Assembly: GCA_947646415.1 (NCBI GenBank)
Contig: CANSGN010000002.1
Span: forward strand, 62,001-126,000
Length of the DNA stretch: 64,000 nucleotides
Direction of reading: 5' to 3'
Source: an uncultured Clostridia bacterium
Lineage (GTDB): Bacteria; Bacillota; Clostridia; Christensenellales; UBA3700
Under the pieces are notes generated by a model. It ran no database searches. It was not told where the DNA came from and saw nothing but the letters and a program-made list of their open reading frames with translations. The position numbers and the translations under genes are program-made. Within the stretch, counting starts at the first letter, position 1, and the number at the start of each line of letters is the position of its first letter. Below are positions 54,808 through 63,761 of this stretch, piece by piece.

Positions 54808-55068
54808 TTATATACCAAACACTTTAGCAATTTTTGCTCCTATATTTATACCACATTCAAAGTGAAAGTTGTCACTTAAAGTAATTAATTGAGTATAAAT
54901 ATTCATAACCTGTTCAAGTTGTTGCAATTGATTCGTGGAAAGAGTTGATTGCAATTCTTTTAAAGCTATATCTAATTTGTTTTGACATGAAGTAACTTCA
55001 TTGGGTTGGTTTTCTAGCAATTCCATTAATTTTCCGCTAATAATTTCATAAATGTCTTCAATTTTCAT
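54808..55068 (-). CDS. Small hypothetical protein (86 residues)
   Basis: This small mostly helical protein has no function I can name. It starts MKIEDIYEIISGKLMELLE and ends in a segment (FECGINIGAKIAKVFGI) resembling the C-terminus of small phage or mobile-element proteins of the DUF6809 kind; that match is tentative. The ATG at 55068 follows TGGAGAAAAAT; the in-frame ATG 4 codons earlier overlaps that ribosome site. It is divergent from the HTH gene at 55214. Confidence 0.55.
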   Translation of the reverse strand: MKIEDIYEIISGKLMELLENQPNEVTSCQNKLDIALKELQSTLSTNQLQQLEQVMNIYTQLITLSDNFHFECGINIGAKIAKVFGI

Positions 55069-55147
55069 ATTTTTCTCCATAAATGCTTGTTTTTATTTAG
55101 TTTAACTCTTTTTTCATACTAAGTCAAGATGTTAATTTCATATAACT

Positions 55148-55199
55148 ATAGTTGTTTATAATTATTTTGATAATGTTATATAATATATAAAACAACTAT
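55148..55199. promoter_or_regulatory. Inverted repeat around the promoter of the HTH gene
   Basis: ATAGTTGTTT (55148-55157) and AAACAACTAT (55190-55199) are perfect inverted repeats 32 bases apart, enclosing a -10 box TATAAT (55179-55184). They are likely operator half-sites for the adjacent HTH protein or another regulator. Confidence 0.5.
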
Positions 55200-55213
55200 T
55201 ATTGGAGAAAAAA

Positions 55214-55540
55214 ATGGATCTAAAAACTAAAATAAAAGAAATTATGAAACAACAAGGATATACAATATATTCTTTATCAAAAGCAACTGATTTATCTCAG
55301 ACTAGTATAGCTAATTGGTTCAATAAGTTAAATTATGAGCCTAGTATTTCAGCATTAGAAAAAATATGTGAGGTGTTTGGCATTTCTATGGCGGAACTAT
55401 TTGCTTCTGAGAATGATGTGATGCTACCATGTAAAGATGATATGAAGGAAATTTATCATAAATGGCAAAGGCTAACACCTATACAGAGAAATGCTGTAAA
55501 AGTACACATTGATAGTTATATAAAAGGTAAAGGTTGTTGA
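55214..55540 (+). CDS. XRE-family HTH regulator
   Basis: This 108-residue Cro/CI-type regulator has its HTH at residues about 5-62 (GYTIYSLSKATDLSQTSIANWF...PSISALEKICEVFGISMAELF) and a helical tail (YHKWQRLTPIQRNAVKVHID) typical of small phage/ICE regulators. ATG 55214 has TTGGAG at the right distance; the TTG at 55202 overlaps it. It lies 40 bases before the response regulator gene and may be co-transcribed or gate the quorum-sensing operon. Confidence 0.88.
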   Translation: MDLKTKIKEIMKQQGYTIYSLSKATDLSQTSIANWFNKLNYEPSISALEKICEVFGISMAELFASENDVMLPCKDDMKEIYHKWQRLTPIQRNAVKVHIDSYIKGKGC

Positions 55541-55580
55541 CTTTAAAAGTACAATATGATAATATAGGAGTATGAGCAAA

Positions 55581-56291
55581 ATGATAAAAGTTGCTATATG
55601 TGATGATGAGATATCAATAGCAAATGAATTGCATGATTTAATATGCAAACACGGAAACCAAGAAAAATATGAGTTCTTTATTTATGACAATGGCAATGAT
55701 TTACTATTGTCAGATTTAAAGTTGTATGATATGGTATTTTTGGACATTGAACTAGGTGACATGTGTGGAATAGATGTTGGTAATGAATTGAAGAAAGTAA
55801 ACAAAACAGCTATATTATTTTATGTGACTAATCATGCTAACTATATATCAGAAGCATTAAGGCAAACACCATTTCAATTTATATTAAAGCCTTTGAAAGA
55901 AAAAGAAAAATTATTTATTGAAGAATTTAACAGAGGATTAAAAAAATTATTAAAAGAAAGGAATGTTATAAATGTAACAACAAATAATGGAAATGAAATT
56001 ATTAAAGTACAGTCTATTCAATTTATTGAATGTTTAAATAGAAAATTAGAATTTCATTTGCAAGATAAAACAATTTATACTTCAGGAAAAATAAAAGATT
56101 TAAAAGATAGGTTATTACCATATGGATTTGAACAATGTCATGTCAGTTATTTATTAAATTTGCGATATGTTTCTCAAATTAAAGGATATAATGTATATTT
56201 ATTTAATGGTGATATATTGCCTATAAGTAAAAGATATTTAACTACAATCAAAGAATCTTTTGCAAAATACTTAGCGGGGATTTTAATATAA
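55581..56291 (+). CDS. AgrA-type response regulator (receiver + LytTR)
   Basis: This 236-residue cytoplasmic response regulator has a receiver domain with the acidic pocket Asp8/Asp9, phosphoacceptor Asp55 (VFLDIEL) and Lys103. A LytTR DNA-binding domain (about 133-236) carries FIECLNRKLEFHL, TSGKIKDLKDRL and FEQCHVSYLLNLRYV. LytTR proteins bind paired 9-10-bp direct repeats about 21 bases apart; such pairs occur upstream of agrB, agrD1 and agrD2. The ATG at 55581 has GGAG 10 bases before it. The stop overlaps the kinase start (TAATG). Confidence 0.92.
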   Translation: MIKVAICDDEISIANELHDLICKHGNQEKYEFFIYDNGNDLLLSDLKLYDMVFLDIELGDMCGIDVGNELKKVNKTAILFYVTNHANYISEALRQTPFQFILKPLKEKEKLFIEEFNRGLKKLLKERNVINVTTNNGNEIIKVQSIQFIECLNRKLEFHLQDKTIYTSGKIKDLKDRLLPYGFEQCHVSYLLNLRYVSQIKGYNVYLFNGDILPISKRYLTTIKESFAKYLAGILI

Positions 56292-57580
56292 TGAAAAGTT
56301 GGATGTTTATTTTATGTGATATTGTATCATTAATTATAGGAGTGCTAATCCTCAATTCTTATTTTTTGATTTTCGGCAAAAACAGATGGAAACAAAAATG
56401 GAAAAAATTGTTATGTGCAATAGCTTTTGTAATATTGGGAACAATTATTAATATATTTAATCAAATTCAAATAGTTTATGCCTTATTAATGTTTTTGTTA
56501 ATTGTTGCTTATTCTTTGGTTTTTGAAGTTAAAGTTGTAAAGCGAATATATTCAACATTATTAATATATGTTGTATTTATATTCAGTGAAACAGGTGTGT
56601 TTTTAATATTAAGTTTGATATCGAGCTTAACTATTGCACAATTACAAGGGAATATTTTAGCATATATGCAAGCTGCAATTGTTGCAAAAGTAATATTTTA
56701 TGTAATTATAAGATTAATATCATCAAAAGTAACTTGTAAAAATAACAGTATACCTAAAGTTATAATGGCTGCATTTATTGTGCTACCTTTGACAACTTTT
56801 GCAATATTATATTTTACATTTGAATATGTTTACACAAATAGTGATATTGTAGCTCAAATTATATTATTTATCTTAGCAATGCTATTAATTGCAGCTAATA
56901 TGATAGTTTTTTTAATATTTGATTATATCTCTAAACAAAAAGACAAAGAAAAAAATGTTGAAATAAAGGCTCAGCAATTAGAATACGAGAGACAATATTA
57001 TAGTGATTTATATGAAAAGCAAACACAGAGTGATAAGATAACTCATGATTTAAAAAGCAAGTATTATGCGATTCATTCTTTAATGGATAAAGATGTAAAA
57101 AAAGCAAAAAAGGAATTGGACAGCATAGTAAATGTTTTTGAGCAGGTGAAAAAGATAAAAATAACAGGTGATGTAGGTATAGATGCATTATTAAATCATA
57201 AAATAATGCAAGCAAAAGAACTGGGCATTGAAATAGATGCTATTAGTTGTATAAGCAATGTAGATAAGTTTGATAATATAGATTTATGTGTAATTTTGGG
57301 GAATTTATTGGATAATAGCATTGAAGCATGTAATAAATTAGACGAAAACATTGCTAAATATATAAATATTCAATTTAAACAAGAGTTACAATATTTAATT
57401 ATTTCAATTGAAAATCCTTGTGAGAACAATGTTGATCCCAAAAGAACAAGTAAACAAGATCAAATTCATCACGGCTTCGGAATAAATAATATTAAAGAGA
57501 TTATTGATAAATATAACGGGGTTTTAGACATCAATATTCAAGATAATAAATTTAAAGTTACTATTGTGATGGGAGATTAA
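56291..57580 (+). CDS. AgrC-type sensor histidine kinase (GHKL)
   Basis: This 429-residue membrane kinase partners the preceding regulator. The N-terminal ~210 residues form six or seven membrane helices, as in AgrC peptide sensors. The transmitter has the phosphoacceptor His252 in KITHDLKSKYYAI and a GHKL ATPase with N-box CVILGNLLDNSIEAC and the G-box HHGFGINNIKEI. Its natural ligand is most likely the cyclic peptide made by AgrB from the two AgrD genes downstream. Its ATG shares the final A of the regulator stop. Confidence 0.93.
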   Translation: MKSWMFILCDIVSLIIGVLILNSYFLIFGKNRWKQKWKKLLCAIAFVILGTIINIFNQIQIVYALLMFLLIVAYSLVFEVKVVKRIYSTLLIYVVFIFSETGVFLILSLISSLTIAQLQGNILAYMQAAIVAKVIFYVIIRLISSKVTCKNNSIPKVIMAAFIVLPLTTFAILYFTFEYVYTNSDIVAQIILFILAMLLIAANMIVFLIFDYISKQKDKEKNVEIKAQQLEYERQYYSDLYEKQTQSDKITHDLKSKYYAIHSLMDKDVKKAKKELDSIVNVFEQVKKIKITGDVGIDALLNHKIMQAKELGIEIDAISCISNVDKFDNIDLCVILGNLLDNSIEACNKLDENIAKYINIQFKQELQYLIISIENPCENNVDPKRTSKQDQIHHGFGINNIKEIIDKYNGVLDINIQDNKFKVTIVMGD

Positions 57581-57589
57581 ATATTTATA

Positions 57590-57657
57590 TCCAAAAATGC
57601 AAAAAAGTCTTCCAAAAATGCAAAATACTTGATAATTTCATTGATTATATTTATAAT
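57590..57657 (+). promoter_or_regulatory. LytTR-type paired direct repeat and agrB promoter
   Basis: TCCAAAAATGCAAAA occurs at 57590 and again at 57611 (21-bp period). Three bases after the second copy comes TTGATA (57629-57634), then 17 bases and TATAAT (57652-57657). Confidence 0.8.
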
Positions 57658-57677
57658 GTTCAATGTAGGAGATTATC

Positions 57678-58292
57678 ATGAAGTATTTAGCAACAAAAGT
57701 TACAAACTATTTCATTAGAAAAAATATTGTTAAAGAAGATGAACAAGAGACATATATTTATTGTTTTGAGTTATTAATTGCAACAATTGTTAATTTATTG
57801 GTAATGTTAGTTATAGCGGTGGCAACACAATTGTATTTAGAATCTTTTATATTTACAATTGTGTTTATGTCAATGCGTGGGATATGCGGTGGTTATCATG
57901 CAAATACCCATCTGACATGTTTTCTAACATTAATGATTGTTTTTGGTGCATTTATAACTATGCTGAAACTTATTAATGTAATTTATTTATTTTATATTTC
58001 TATTGGCTGTTTAGTATTAGCAAGTATAATTATTTGTTTGTTAGCACCAATTGATAGTGTAGCAAAGCCTTTAACAATAAAAGAATATAAGAAGAATAAG
58101 AAAAAGTCTATTGTGTTATTAAGTTTTTATATAGGTATTTCAATTATATTATTGATTTTTCAAAAAACTAGATATTTTTCTTTTTGCTTAACTTATCCAT
58201 TGATTGCAGTTGCAATTATGTTAATAGTAGGATATATAAAAAATTTAATTCAGAATTCGAAAGAACAAAAATTTCAAATAGTAGAAGAATAA
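57678..58292 (+). CDS. AgrB-type autoinducer peptide protease/processing membrane protein
   Basis: This 204-residue polytopic membrane protein of the AgrB family cuts AgrD and forms a thiolactone ring while exporting the peptide. The catalytic pair is visible: RGICGGYH (His74) and Cys81 in LTCFL, with the family spacing His-x6-Cys. Four to six helices follow. GTAGGAG precedes the start. Its promoter carries a paired direct repeat matching those of both agrD genes. Confidence 0.94.
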   Translation: MKYLATKVTNYFIRKNIVKEDEQETYIYCFELLIATIVNLLVMLVIAVATQLYLESFIFTIVFMSMRGICGGYHANTHLTCFLTLMIVFGAFITMLKLINVIYLFYISIGCLVLASIIICLLAPIDSVAKPLTIKEYKKNKKKSIVLLSFYIGISIILLIFQKTRYFSFCLTYPLIAVAIMLIVGYIKNLIQNSKEQKFQIVEE

Positions 58293-58295
58293 TAA

Positions 58296-58325
58296 AAATA
58301 AGCCACGAAAGGGCTTATTTTTTTA
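58296..58325 (+). terminator. Terminator of agrB
   Basis: AAATAAGCC pairs with GGCTTATTT, followed by a T run. It separates agrB from agrD1. Confidence 0.8.
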
Positions 58326-58332
58326 CTTTGTT

Positions 58333-58400
58333 TCCAAAAATGCAAAAAAGTCTTCCAAAATTACAAAAGTATTGAAATTATGTAATAAATTTTGTAGTAT
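58333..58400 (+). promoter_or_regulatory. LytTR-type paired direct repeat and agrD1 promoter
   Basis: TCCAAAAATGCAAAA (58333) and TCCAAAATTACAAAA (58354) lie 21 bases apart; TTGAAA (58372-58377) begins 3 bases later, then 17 bases and TAGTAT (58395-58400). Confidence 0.8.
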
Positions 58401-58432
58401 TTAGTTGTAAAACTACAAAAGGAGGATAGTTT

Positions 58433-58570
58433 ATGAAAAAAGAGAAAAACAATGGTGTTATGAGCATTATTCCAAAAATCGCTCGTAAAATTGGAGAAAA
58501 ATCTGTTTCAGACACTTGCTTTTGGCTTGCACATCAACCTAAAGTGCCAGCAAGCATGAAAAAAGACTGA
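58433..58570 (+). CDS. AgrD-type autoinducer precursor 1
   Basis: This 45-residue peptide is of the cyclic lactone autoinducer (AgrD) family. It has an amphipathic leader (MSIIPKIARKIGEKSVSD), the core TCFWLA with the ring-forming Cys, and the charged C-terminal recognition tail HQPKVPASMKKD (QPKxP motif). AgrB should release a ring built on CFWLA (inference from the family). AAAAGGAGGATAGTTT precedes the ATG. The gene has its own promoter and a hairpin 47 bases downstream. Confidence 0.9.
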   Translation: MKKEKNNGVMSIIPKIARKIGEKSVSDTCFWLAHQPKVPASMKKD

Positions 58571-58616
58571 AGCTAATTTTATTATTTAAAATATATAAAG
58601 AATATGGCATTGATTA

Positions 58617-58645
58617 AACACTCATTTATTAATGGGTGTTTATTT
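58617..58645 (+). terminator. Hairpin after agrD1
   Basis: AACACTCATT (58617-58626) pairs with AATGGGTGTT (58631-58640), with one G-U pair, then a T-rich stretch. Confidence 0.55.
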
Positions 58646-58757
58646 CATAATAACTATCTATATAAAAATTATGTTGAGTTGTAAAAATTAATTAAAATTC
58701 TATTTAGACTTCAATTAATCTAAGAGCTAAAAATATCTGATTTTTTTCTGTAAATCT

Positions 58758-58825
58758 TCCAAAAATGCAAAAAAGTCTTCCAAAAATACAAAAGTATTGA
58801 ATTAATATGGAGAATTTTGTAATAT
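58758..58825 (+). promoter_or_regulatory. LytTR-type paired direct repeat and agrD2 promoter
   Basis: TCCAAAAATGCAAAA (58758) and TCCAAAAATACAAAA (58779), period 21; 3 bases on is TTGAAT (58797-58802), then 17 bases and TAATAT (58820-58825). The layout is the same as for agrB and agrD1. Confidence 0.8.
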
Positions 58826-58855: not shown

Positions 58856-58999
58856 ATGAAAGACATGCAGAAAAATAATGGTGTTATGAGCATTATTCCA
58901 AAAATTGCTCGCAAAGTTGGAGAAAAATCTGTTTCAGATACTTGCTTTTGGCTTGCTCATCAACCAAAAGTGCCATCAAGTATGAAAAAGGATATATAA
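58856..58999 (+). CDS. AgrD-type autoinducer precursor 2
   Basis: This 47-residue paralogue of agrD1 differs only in the first few residues, one Ile/Val, one Ala/Ser and an added C-terminal Ile. The core TCFWLA and the tail HQPKVP are identical, so both genes should give the same signal. TAAGGAGGAAAATAT precedes the ATG. Between its stop and the RiPP precursor at 59143 I see no convincing terminator, so transcription could continue into the RiPP genes. Confidence 0.9.
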   Translation: MKDMQKNNGVMSIIPKIARKVGEKSVSDTCFWLAHQPKVPSSMKKDI

Positions 59000-59142
59000 T
59001 TGTTGGCAATCAAAAATATGTACTTAATAAAAAGAATAGCTTTTAATAAGTCTATAAGTTTATATCGCCTTGATTGATATATCCACAACATAAAATTTAT
59101 TAAAAGCAGAAAAATTATAAAAAATAAAGAGGAGATAATCTT

Positions 59143-59370
59143 ATGGAAAAAGAAAAATATGAAGAGCCAAATTTAGTTGTTTTAAGTGGTGATGAATATG
59201 GTATTCAACCACTTGGTATTGCTTTACCACCATTGCTTATTGTCGCAGCATTTGTTATTGCTGCTGCAAATCTTTTAGTAGCTGTAGCTGCCGCTGGTGT
59301 TGTTGCACTTGCTGGCGCAACACAGGTTCACGGCGTTGTTAATGTAGATACATATACAACAGTAAGTTAA
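59143..59370 (+). CDS. Probable RiPP precursor peptide, Ala/Val-rich
   Basis: This 75-residue peptide is encoded right before the radical SAM gene. Residues 1-23 form a charged leader (EEPNLVVLSGDEYGIQP), with a beta-strand-like NLVVL that a PqqD-type recognition domain could bind. Residues about 24-59 are very hydrophobic (Ala, Val, Leu, Ile); the end (60-75) is polar with Thr and Val. There is no cysteine at all, which excludes sactipeptide or lanthionine crosslinks. AAGAGGAGATAATC precedes the ATG. It could instead be a small membrane protein, but the gene order favours a modified peptide. Confidence 0.7.
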   Translation: MEKEKYEEPNLVVLSGDEYGIQPLGIALPPLLIVAAFVIAAANLLVAVAAAGVVALAGATQVHGVVNVDTYTTVS

Positions 59371-59382
59371 AAGGAGAAAATT

Positions 59383-60438
59383 ATGGATATAGAAATTAAA
59401 GGCGATGTAATAAGTGCTAGTGCAGTTAGCACTAGCACGAATTTTAAAACCGAATTAGGGGCTCCAATAATGGTGGCCTTTGATGTGACGAATAAATGTA
59501 ATTTTAGATGTTTACATTGTTTTAATCATAGTGGTGAAGATATTTTTAGCGATGAATTAAATAATGAAGGCAAATTGGATGTAGTTGATCAAATAATTCA
59601 ATTAAAACCATATATAGTATGCCTATGTGGAGGAGAGACAACTTGCTGTGAAGAATTAATTAAAATAATTAGTAGGCTTAAGAAAGTTGTTCCAACCGTT
59701 AATATGGTTTCTAATGGGTATCTTATAACTAAAGAAGTTGCAAAAAAATTAAAAGAAGCTGATATTAATAATGTGCAAATAAGTGTAGATGGAATTAATG
59801 CTGAACAACATGATACTTTTCGAGGCAAATATGGTGCTTTCAATAAGGCAATGGAGGCAATAAAAAATTTAAAAGATGAAGGTATTAATGTCATGGTATC
59901 CTTAGTTCCAAACAAATTAAATTATAGAGATGCATATAAGTTTTTTGAAATGTGTAGCAAACTTGAAGTAAAGCAAGCAAGAAGCATGCCGTTTTTACCT
60001 ATGGGACGTGGTGGGAAAGGAGATTTGGGAAGTAATTTATTGTTGGATTCTAAAGAACAATATGAGTTTTGCCTATTAATGCAACAAGCAAAAAATGATT
60101 TTACTAATATAGAAATTGAGTGGGGTGATCCAATTGATCATATGTATCGAATGCCTGAAAATGCAAGTTTAGGTTTAGAAACATATAGTATGGATGTTAA
60201 AAGCAATGGCGATATTGGAGTTTCTGCGTATTTTCCTATTTCTGTAGGTAATGTGAAAAGACATACATTAAAAGAATACTGGGACGCTGGATATAAAAAA
60301 ATATGGCAAAACAGAAAAATAAAAGAAATGGTAAAAAATATTGAAAATATAAATGATTTTAATAAAATAGCCAATTTAAAAAAAATTGATATAGATATAA
60401 TAGAAGGAGAAAATTATGAAATACACAATAAATTATGA
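59383..60438 (+). CDS. Radical SAM peptide-modifying enzyme
   Basis: This 351-residue radical SAM enzyme has the cluster motif CNFRCLHC (Cys39, Cys43, Cys46) and the SAM-binding GGET (83-86). The C-terminal part has the shape of a SPASM/twitch region (GDIGVSAYFPISVGNVKRHT, then KEYWDAG), but cysteines expected for an auxiliary cluster are replaced, so only one iron-sulfur cluster is certain. Free cysteines 191 and 230 are candidates for a hydrogen donor in epimerase chemistry; this is inference. AAGGAGAAAATT precedes the ATG. The last 23 bases overlap the next gene. Confidence 0.88.
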   Translation: MDIEIKGDVISASAVSTSTNFKTELGAPIMVAFDVTNKCNFRCLHCFNHSGEDIFSDELNNEGKLDVVDQIIQLKPYIVCLCGGETTCCEELIKIISRLKKVVPTVNMVSNGYLITKEVAKKLKEADINNVQISVDGINAEQHDTFRGKYGAFNKAMEAIKNLKDEGINVMVSLVPNKLNYRDAYKFFEMCSKLEVKQARSMPFLPMGRGGKGDLGSNLLLDSKEQYEFCLLMQQAKNDFTNIEIEWGDPIDHMYRMPENASLGLETYSMDVKSNGDIGVSAYFPISVGNVKRHTLKEYWDAGYKKIWQNRKIKEMVKNIENINDFNKIANLKKIDIDIIEGENYEIHNKL

Positions 60439-61174
60439 CAAAATCAAATACAGAGAAGAAGAAAACGGTACTTATAGTTTTATGAATAGCACAACTGGTA
60501 AAATAGTTTTTTTAAACAAAGTTGCTAGTTTTATTTATTTGCATAATGAAATTAATACATTAGAGGCATTGGTTGATAAATTGATTGAACGTTTCGAAGT
60601 TCCATCAGTAGAAAAAGTTCAACAGGATTGTATTAATGCATTATATATTATGAGTGCTTTAGAATTGTTGACTATAGATGATGATAATGATAATAGTGTA
60701 GTTGAAGGTTGTTATGTAGCAGGGGAAAGCGATTATAAAAAAATCAGTCAATTTATAGTTAATAGCTTTAAACAAAAAAAGAATGTTTTATTTTTTTTAG
60801 GTAAGGATTTGAATTATTATTCTCATTACTCAATTAGAGCTAGACAATTTAATAATAAAGAATATAATTTTATTTATTTTAATAATCGAAAAGAAATAAT
60901 AGCACAAATATCATTGGGTGTAATAACAAATAGTACTTTTACACTTCTTAATGCTTTTGCTGATACAAATAATTTGGACAAAGTAAAAGAACTAATAAAT
61001 TATGCTTTTTTAGTTACACCAAAATTAAATAAAATTTGTTTATCTTTGAATTCTGATACTCCTAAAAAAGCATTTAAAAATGCAGAATATCTAGGATTTA
61101 AATTAGAAGCAATTTTAAAAGATGAGATTTCGATTAATGTCGATTTGTTAAATTATGCAATATTTAGAGAGTGA
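60416..61174 (+). CDS. PqqD-like recognition domain fused to GNAT-like acetyltransferase
   Basis: This 252-residue protein joins two parts. Residues 1-90 resemble PqqD/RRE (YSFMNSTTGKIVFLNKVASFIYLH, LVDKLIERFEVPSVEKVQQDC), the module that holds RiPP leader peptides. Residues about 100-250 look like a GNAT fold, with LLNAFADTNNLDKVKELINYA and the end AFKNAEYLGFKLEAILKDEI. It could recruit the precursor and acylate it. Both domain calls rest on pattern only. It starts inside the radical SAM gene with AGGAGAAAATT. Confidence 0.7.
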   Translation: MKYTINYDKIKYREEENGTYSFMNSTTGKIVFLNKVASFIYLHNEINTLEALVDKLIERFEVPSVEKVQQDCINALYIMSALELLTIDDDNDNSVVEGCYVAGESDYKKISQFIVNSFKQKKNVLFFLGKDLNYYSHYSIRARQFNNKEYNFIYFNNRKEIIAQISLGVITNSTFTLLNAFADTNNLDKVKELINYAFLVTPKLNKICLSLNSDTPKKAFKNAEYLGFKLEAILKDEISINVDLLNYAIFRE

Positions 61175-61240
61175 TTTCATATAGAAAAAACTAAATATAT
61201 TTGTATTGTTAATTTCCATAATTGCACTTAAGGAGGTAAT

Positions 61241-61618
61241 ATGGATATAGAAACTATTATTATATTAATATTTTGTCCAATATTAATGCCTATGTATTTG
61301 TATGCGATATTGTTAATGTTTGGCATAGGAGGATCTTTATTAGCAGGTTATAATATGTCAACTAAAAATACTTCAGCGAAACAAGAACATAAATACATCT
61401 TAAGAACAGCTGGTATATGTATATTCATTTTATTGTTAATTATCCATTCAATATTGATACTTTTCGTAATTAAACTAATTGTATGGGGGTGCATAATGAT
61501 TGGTGTTTTTGCTGTGTGGATAGTTGCAATGTTGTTGATTCTAAACAGAAAAAAAATGAAAGAAAAATTAAAAATAGTACTTGACAATAAATTAGATGGC
61601 AAAAATTCGCATGATTAA
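61241..61618 (+). CDS. Small membrane protein (DUF3784-like), first of two
   Basis: This 125-residue protein has three hydrophobic segments (about 4-34, 62-86, 85-108) and a GGSLLAGYNMSTKNTSAKQEHKY segment reminiscent of DUF3784. Its role is unknown. In peptide-producing clusters such small membrane proteins often give self-protection. AAGGAGGTAAT precedes the ATG. It is related to the next gene. Confidence 0.65.
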   Translation: MDIETIIILIFCPILMPMYLYAILLMFGIGGSLLAGYNMSTKNTSAKQEHKYILRTAGICIFILLLIIHSILILFVIKLIVWGCIMIGVFAVWIVAMLLILNRKKMKEKLKIVLDNKLDGKNSHD

Positions 61619-61670
61619 AATTAAACAACAAAAGCATATAAATTTTTATTGTAATTATAGGAGACTTTTT

Positions 61671-62075
61671 ATGGAATTAAATGTTTTATTGGCAATTGTG
61701 CTTAGTGCAACACTTTTTGTATTTATGTATATAATTGGTGTTTTGTTCTCTTTTGGAAAATGTGGTATTTTGATTGCAGGTTATCACTTTGAACCTAAAG
61801 GCGACAAAGCAAAAGTCTATCATAAATATGTGATGAGAAGAATTGGCTTATGGTTTTTGATGTTAATTGCAACAGTACATATAGGTACAGTTTGTGGATT
61901 GCTAGGCTATAATATAGTAAGCTATATTTTTATTGGAGTAACATTTGCTGAAGCTATTTTTGGATTATTGTGCTTTAATTTTAACAAAAAAATCAAAAAA
62001 GCCATACAAATGGAAAGAGAGTTGAGTAAAGAGTTTGAAAGTGAAGAAAAAGAGAAAATGCAAAACAATAATTGA
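61671..62075 (+). CDS. Small membrane protein (DUF3784-like), second of two
   Basis: This 134-residue protein has the same layout as the preceding one: N-terminal helix, GKCGILIAGYHFEPKGDKAKVYHKY, two further helices and a charged tail. The pair looks like an old duplication. The ATG at 61671 follows ATAGGAGACTT; the in-frame codon at 61596 lies inside the upstream gene and lacks a ribosome site. It may give immunity or help export. Confidence 0.65.
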   Translation: MELNVLLAIVLSATLFVFMYIIGVLFSFGKCGILIAGYHFEPKGDKAKVYHKYVMRRIGLWFLMLIATVHIGTVCGLLGYNIVSYIFIGVTFAEAIFGLLCFNFNKKIKKAIQMERELSKEFESEEKEKMQNNN

Positions 62076-62102: not shown

Positions 62103-63761
62103 ATGGAAAAATTAAGATTAAAACACTATCTATCCTATATGCATACAAATTCAAAGGGGTATCGCAAATATATTCCTTTGATATTTGTATGTTCATTATG
62201 TTTCTCTATATTGTCGATTTTTATAGCATTAATAGGAAAACAATTGATTGATAACCTTTTAACAATGAACAATAATGTTATTGTTAAGGTAATTTTGATA
62301 TCTATATCAGCTTATGTTGTCGGTGCTATTTTAGGATTTTTTACATCGTATTTTGAGAAATATATAATTGATAAATACAAAATGAAATTGCAATTGGCTT
62401 TTTATGACAATATGCAAAAGTCAGAGTTCGTGTTCTTTTCAAATTTAAGTTCAAGTGATGTTTACTATAGAATGTTTACTGATATTGGCATAATGGTCGA
62501 TTTTTATTTGAATCTGTGTATAACTATTCCAATTAAAGTAATTGTTTTTATAGTAGCAGCATCAATAATGTTTGTTTGGTCATACCAATTAACATTGGCT
62601 ATAATTGGTCTGGTTCTTCTTCAAATGGTAATAATGCTAATTTTTAGAAAACCGATACGAAAAAGAGCTGAAATAGCATTAGCATCTGATCAAAAGCTGA
62701 TTGCAAAAATTAATGAGGATGTTATAAAGAGCGATTTGTGTAGGAGTTTAGCGTTAGAAGAGTATAATTTGAATAATATCACAAGTTATTTTGACGAAAG
62801 TAGAAAGAATCGATTAAAATCATCAAAAATATCTTTGTTATATTCTTCTATAGTTGGATTGACAAGTCAAATTATTAACATATGTTTGTTATTGATAGGA
62901 ATATTCTTTGTATCAAAAGAAATTATAACAATTGGAATGCTAATGGGCATTTCGATGTTGGCAGGATATATTTATCAACCAATTAATGATTTTTTCAAAA
63001 CAGTTATTTCCTATCAGTCAACAATTGTAAGTTATAAAAGGTTTTATGAATTCAATAATCAAATAGACATAAATCGTGTGCAAAACGATATTATGTTTGA
63101 GAATGGCGATATTAAAATTGAAAATTTATTTTATATGTATGGCAACAAAATAGTTTTTCAAAATTTCAATACGATAATAAATAAAAATCAAATTACATTA
63201 TTAAAAGGTCCTAATGGTTCAGGAAAAACAACTTTAATGAGACTTTTAACTCGTTCATTAAGACCTATGAATGGAAACATAATTATTTCCGATAAAAATA
63301 TAAATGAATACGATTTTAATGACTATCGAAAACATATTATTTCATTAAGTAGTATACCATTAATATTAAATGGAACTTTAAGAGAAAACATTTGTGCTAA
63401 TGAAAACTTTTCGGATGAAGAAATATTTTCAATATTAAATAAATGTTGTCTAATGAATGTAGTAGATAGATTGCCGCAAGGTATTGAGACAAAGTTAGGG
63501 CTAGGAGAAACAGGATTATCACAAGGTGAAATCCAAAAAATAGCGTTAGCTAGAGTATTAATAAGGAAACCAAACATATTAATACTTGATGAACCATTAG
63601 CTCATATTGATGTAGCATCAGTTGAAGATATTCAACAAGTTTTACTTCAATATAACAAAGAAACAAATAGTACAATTATAATTATAAGTCATGATGCTAG
63701 AATAGAACAAATAGTTGATAAGGTTATAGATTTGAAAAATAATTGTGTTAACAATAATTAA
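62103..63761 (+). CDS. ABC exporter (fused membrane and ATPase domains)
   Basis: This 552-residue half-transporter joins six membrane helices (about 20-300) to an ATPase domain: Walker [10 protein letters not shown] (369-377), signature GLSQGEIQK, Walker B ILILDEP, H-loop IISHD. There is no N-terminal C39 peptidase, so it does not cut a double-glycine leader itself. It is the probable exporter of the mature product. AAGGTG precedes the ATG. The gene for a protease that removes the leader is not visible in the window. Confidence 0.9.

Follow-up and report, generated by a model that had tools for sequence, protein, structure and literature searches.

Paired direct repeats at the promoters of agrB and two agrD genes as candidate operators of a LytTR regulator in an uncultured Clostridia bacterium

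RESULTS

An agr locus with two signal genes and an adjoining peptide cluster

The window, by which we mean the whole analysed stretch of 64,000 nucleotides from an uncultured Clostridia bacterium, carries the following features.

55202..55540, + strand: small regulator of the HTH (Cro/C1) type, immediately preceding the response regulator gene (PF01381, E 1.6e-12)
55537..55565, + strand: promoter-like TTGACT-17-TAATAT with TG before the -10, for the regulator/kinase genes, no box
55572..56291, + strand: AgrA/VirR-type response regulator, receiver and LytTR domains (PF00072, 1.8e-10; PF04397, 6.3e-16)
56291..57580, + strand: AgrC-like membrane histidine kinase, GHKL ATPase (PF14501, 2.1e-26)
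57590..57604, + strand: predicted operator repeat 1 of agrB
57611..57625, + strand: predicted operator repeat 2 of agrB
57629..57657, + strand: agrB promoter TTGATA-17-TATAAT
57678..58292, + strand: AgrB-type signal processing/export protease (PF04647, 4.8e-37)
58294..58322, + strand: terminator-like hairpin after agrB (folding z -3.5)
58333..58347, + strand: predicted operator repeat 1 of agrD1
58354..58368, + strand: predicted operator repeat 2 of agrD1, 2 changes
58372..58400, + strand: agrD1 promoter TTGAAA-17-TAGTAT
58433..58570, + strand: AgrD1 signal precursor of 45 aa with the core CFWLA, followed by HQPKVP (TIGR04223, 42.3 bits, cut-off 19)
58615..58644, + strand: terminator-like hairpin after agrD1, 12-bp stem and T-rich tail (folding z -4.2)
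58758..58772, + strand: predicted operator repeat 1 of agrD2
58779..58793, + strand: predicted operator repeat 2 of agrD2, 1 change
58797..58825, + strand: agrD2 promoter TTGAAT-17-TAATAT
58856..58999, + strand: AgrD2 signal precursor, 47 aa, core CFWLA-HQPKVP as in AgrD1 (TIGR04223, 41.3 bits)
59143..59370, + strand: probable RiPP precursor, a hydrophobic peptide of 75 aa without its own box
59383..60438, + strand: radical SAM peptide-maturase-like enzyme (PF04055, 9.5e-23)
60416..61174, + strand: protein with PqqD-like (RRE-type) N-terminus (PF05402, 7.3e-5)
61241..62075, + strand: two small DUF3784-like membrane proteins, 61241-61618 and 61596-62075 (PF12650)
62103..63761, + strand: ABC exporter, permease and ATPase (PF00664, PF00005)

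The locus has the make-up of an Agr system: a linked AgrC-type GHKL kinase and LytTR response regulator (PF14501, PF00072, PF04397), an AgrB protease gene whose translation shows a spacing of 7 residues between His and Cys (YHANTHLTC), and two AgrD genes with a Cys core and conserved C-terminal tail, both above the TIGR04223 cut-off. The regulator keeps the receiver Asp, Thr and Lys conserved among its relatives; it and the kinase lie outside the Staphylococcus AgrA/AgrC equivalog cut-offs (the kinase matches NF046015 at 1.4e-10, below cut-off). Since terminator-like hairpins end agrB and agrD1 (the latter was found by folding and missed by the pattern scan), agrB, agrD1 and agrD2 appear to form three transcription units with one box each. 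Over the segment that runs from the box almost to the stop, agrD1 and agrD2 share 84% identity, which marks them as a segmental duplication; because the predicted core is the same, they probably provide a double dose of one signal, not two signals.

Neither a promoter nor a terminator was found when the interval from agrD2 to the peptide gene (59143) was searched, so that this gene is likely transcribed from the agrD2 promoter by read-through. A 13-bp hairpin at about 59039-59108 was considered as a terminator and rejected: it is without a U-run, and shuffled sequence folds at least as well as this region. The best NCBIfam match of the radical SAM enzyme is GeoRSP_rSAM, below cut-off, and a radical-SAM search in plasmids gave distant relatives only. 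Relatives of the peptide, the enzyme, the PqqD-like protein and the exporter (4e-219) sit together in G029, a genome from another genus of the family, where the cluster has its own promoter-like site and no AgrB was detected; the cluster is therefore probably an independent module, placed here under the agrD2 promoter. The cluster shared with this genome lies at 59143-62075 in the window and at L185:6530-8724 in its counterpart, and a more distant version of the cluster, with a Val/Ala/Asn-rich precursor, is present at L186.

Three near-identical modules of paired repeats and promoters

Pairs of 15-bp direct repeats with a 21-bp period (57590/57611, 58333/58354 and 58758/58779) precede the three promoters, which is how the direct repeats of a LytTR-type paired operator are arranged, with about 21 bp from one to the next. 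Repeat 1 is TCCAAAAATGCAAAA at 57590, 58333 and 58758, and the 6-bp linker AAGTCT is the same in 3/3 modules, while repeat 2 reads TCCAAAAATGCAAAA at 57611, TCCAAAATTACAAAA at 58354 and TCCAAAAATACAAAA at 58779. A gap of 3 nt (TAC at agrB, GTA at agrD1 and at agrD2) separates repeat 2 from the -35 box, and the spacer to the -10 box is 17 nt in every module. The preliminary description of this DNA had given these positions, this period and both distances, and all of them are exact; it had also called the modules identical, which is true of repeat 1 and the linker, but the modules as a whole are near-identical because the second repeats carry 0 (agrB), 2 (agrD1) and 1 (agrD2) changes. The agrB promoter is near consensus (11/12, with the 17-nt spacer), and the agrD promoters look weak on paper.

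The paired motif occurs three times in the window versus 0.00 expected from shuffles. The genome-wide search that the preliminary description had proposed, carried out as pattern searches with up to 3 mismatches, returned only the three agr sites from the whole 1.73-Mb genome (0 for the reversed-pattern control), all within 1.25 kb and adjoining a LytTR regulator. A degenerate box-plus-35 pattern gave no further target in the genome, the paired motif was absent from 45 other genomes of the family, and viral contigs contained no copy of the double box, which gives no hint of a connection to phages. In a joint scan for the 21-bp repeat, the -35, 17 nt and the -10, 0/300 shuffles matched for each of the agrB, agrD1 and agrD2 sites. 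The same scan found nothing that stands out upstream of the HTH gene, the 59143 peptide gene or the 61241 gene, nor upstream of the regulator, whose operon with the kinase had been described as lacking the box and indeed has no 21-bp repeat architecture in front of it.

Only two LytTR genes were found in the genome. The second one heads an agr module of its own (L052) with a different 21-bp repeat, GTTAGGGCA/GTTAGGACA at its agrB and carried more weakly at its agrD, and the window box is absent from that module. For these reasons the adjacent regulator is the natural binder of the window boxes. A paralogue of the small HTH gene holds the same place in L052, and a DUF6809 protein faces away from the HTH gene upstream of both own-genome agr modules (window 54808-55540, L052:901-1666). 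Genes for small proteins with ENQPEKLAIREVYFGHIG-like sequence point away from the regulator gene in several of the sister modules.

The geometry recurs in related agr modules with module-specific sequence

We compared AgrB genes from the family and the class, and regulators from named genomes. The enriched repeat period upstream of agrB genes is 21 bp, with a family mean best 12-mer score of 10.2/12 at this shift versus at most 8.0 at the other shifts from 12 to 39. In the joint scan most agrB promoters and some agrD promoters showed this geometry, which few or no shuffles reach, and regulator, HTH, peptide-cluster and other control regions do not stand out; the scan was not significant at L056, L061, L064_D and L099, and the coordinates used for L054 missed a box visible by eye. 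The geometry is shared by the own-genome paralogue, sister genomes and agrB of named rumen Clostridia. The sequence of the repeat is specific to the module: TCCAAAAATGCA in the window, ACCAAATAATGC in L055/L057/L058, TCCAAAATCGACATG in L060, ACCACATACTGC in L063 and ACCACTTTTGCA in the rumen relatives L098/L100.

Distances between boxes correlate with distances between regulators, both with the register set by hand (Mantel r 0.55, p 5e-5) and with an automatic register that mis-set L054, L056 and L061 (r 0.35, p 0.004). In the automatic test the receiver-box correlation is r 0.44, and relatedness of the DNA-binding domain is not separable from that of the whole protein. As the LytTR domain does not stand out in this test, our claim is limited to box and regulator having diverged together.

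The linked kinase-regulator-AgrB-AgrD module recurs many times in the genus with varying peptide cores and boxes. In the 2.1-Mb sister genome G010 (L054-L062), ten AgrB matches are spread over many separate modules, and behind most of these modules lie genes of lipoprotein-like and very large secreted-protein-like type. Four of the five L055-type box pairs of this genome lie at agrB promoters. The fifth, at L194 (G010:C11:52745), is a double box TACCGAATAATGC with no agr gene within 3 kb, possibly a distant target or a remnant. Two AgrD precursors have Ser at the position of the core Cys (L056:7206-7343, SAASAWWYNQPVVP; L059:6807-6944, SAASVWWYHQPVVP) and hence predicted lactone signals. At L054:700-1095 an agrD-type half box comes after agrB, and the DNA beyond it is unrelated, which would fit a loss or displacement of agrD.

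DISCUSSION

Published LytTR operators consist of two direct repeats on one helix face abutting the -35, and both repeats are required for cooperative binding and activation (PMC2838878, PMC4747519, PMC2714321, PMC10602386, PMC4227749). That LytTR regulators bind repeats so spaced, as the preliminary description held, agrees with the PlnC/PlnD, VirR and RgaR operators, and its assignment of the boxes to the AgrA-like protein fits the receiver-plus-LytTR neighbour, the presence of only two LytTR genes and the published geometry. We consider it very probable that the paired repeats are operators of the neighbouring AgrA/VirR-type regulator, in an AgrD-AgrB-kinase circuit feeding agrB, agrD1 and agrD2.

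In such a circuit AgrB would mature and export an AgrD peptide, which has a predicted thiolactone around CFWLA and comes from two near-identical genes. The AgrC-like kinase would sense this peptide and phosphorylate the regulator. The regulator would then bind the two direct repeats on one helix face immediately upstream of the -35 and recruit RNA polymerase to agrB, agrD1 and agrD2. By the placement of the boxes it should be an activator, and from their position together with published precedents we infer positive feedback. Since the regulator and kinase genes have their own box-free promoter, this feedback would act on the supply of signal and spare that of the receptor. The agrD2 transcript probably runs on into the radical-SAM peptide cluster, which is likely the density-controlled output. 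Partial precedent exists in C. acetobutylicum, where agrBD and agrCA also lie in separate operons and a RiPP-enzyme-like gene beside agr, CA_C0082, is Agr-controlled, although its product is a LanM-like protein and not part of a radical-SAM cluster; the parts of that source drawn on here report no operator (PMC10301443).

Autoinduction of the agr locus is also a feature of S. aureus. There the loop covers agrBDCA in one operon, while in the window the regulator and kinase would be outside the loop and agrB, agrD1 and agrD2 form separate units. In AgrA, R198 and N201 of FFRCHNS (196-202) contact DNA; by alignment, the window regulator has FEQCHVS, with Q and V there. The AgrA dimer likewise occupies a pair of direct repeats that immediately precede the P2 and P3 promoters, whose spacers are 18 and 20 nt (PMC4227749). 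Unlike these, the agrB promoter of the window, with its 17-nt spacer, is near consensus, and it may therefore fire without the activator and be partly constitutive.

The boxes of the C. perfringens VirSR system resemble those of the window in the CCA...CA skeleton (CCA-N6-CA), the 21-bp period, the abutting -35 and the LytTR regulator (PMC2838878, PMC4747519). The strict consensus CCAnTT-N15-CCAGTT-nnnCA (PMC4747519) is not matched by the window box, CCAAAAATGCA-N10-CCAAAAWTRCA: the CCA spacing and the terminal CA are kept, and AAA replaces GTT, so that it would act like a VirR box without being one by consensus. Another difference is that the window sites are on the agr genes themselves, whereas C. 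perfringens VirR does not activate agrBD (PMC10602386).

C. difficile also has VirR-like direct repeats with 21-bp spacing upstream of agrB1D1, bound by RgaR, for which G residues at -51 and -72, 21 bp apart, are critical; yet RgaSR is unlinked, does not sense AgrD1 and forms no loop with it, and clostridial Agr systems have been suggested to be generally not autoregulatory (PMC10602386). A boxed agrB is thus no proof of a closed loop, and the regulator of the window could drive agrB and agrD while its kinase senses something else. We regard this as unlikely, though it deserves serious weight. The window differs from C. difficile, whose agr1 has no linked agrC/agrA, in having the full linked module, with agrB and the two agrD genes each behind a boxed promoter of its own, and this module recurs as a unit in the genus with varied peptide cores and varied boxes. 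With kinase, regulator, protease and peptide linked, a positive loop is the simplest circuit.

A repressor, or a mixed activator/repressor site, would be compatible with the near-consensus agrB promoter. Both signs are known to use identical repeats in L. plantarum, where PlnD represses at the same repeats at which PlnC activates, in control of regulatory and bacteriocin operons; these 9-bp repeats with a 12-bp spacer directly upstream of the -35 share the geometry of the window boxes, but the repeat sequence is TACGTTAAT and the system is not an agr one (PMC2714321). We find repression improbable here, given that the proximal repeat ends 3 nt upstream of the -35 with no overlap of the core promoter, that this activator-like placement is kept at all three sites and in relatives, and that the agrD promoters are weak on paper.

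Binding of the repeats by the small HTH protein (55202) or another factor, suggested by the HTH gene adjoining the regulator in both own-genome modules, is a far more remote prospect. Sister modules that retain 21-bp repeats yielded no HTH homologue, the box sequence tracks the regulator lineage, and Cro/C1 proteins usually prefer inverted repeats. Least of all do we believe that the repeats reflect the recent copying of a promoter stretch and play no part in regulation: plain duplication does account for the likeness of agrD1 and agrD2, and all three modules have the very same linker, but the agrB site has little in common with the agrD sites beyond box and promoter, and independent modules show the same geometry with different sequences.

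For the clade as a whole, a tentative picture, which we put forward as a possibility, is that agr modules have multiplied into parallel insulated channels, each with its own peptide (a Ser lactone in two cases), kinase, regulator, private co-diverged LytTR operator and local output, the latter being the radical-SAM cluster in the window.

What was an unannotated promoter pattern becomes a specific, testable candidate operator for an Agr system, and the conclusion that a design of known type is met here in an uncultured Clostridia bacterium is well supported. About a dozen regulators with different boxes and one geometry are material for a DNA recognition code of LytTR domains. If the boxes are the docking sites of the regulator, as comparison with related loci suggests, a self-amplifying circuit with a closed feedback loop is to be expected, in a group whose Agr systems were suggested to be generally not autoregulatory (PMC10602386).
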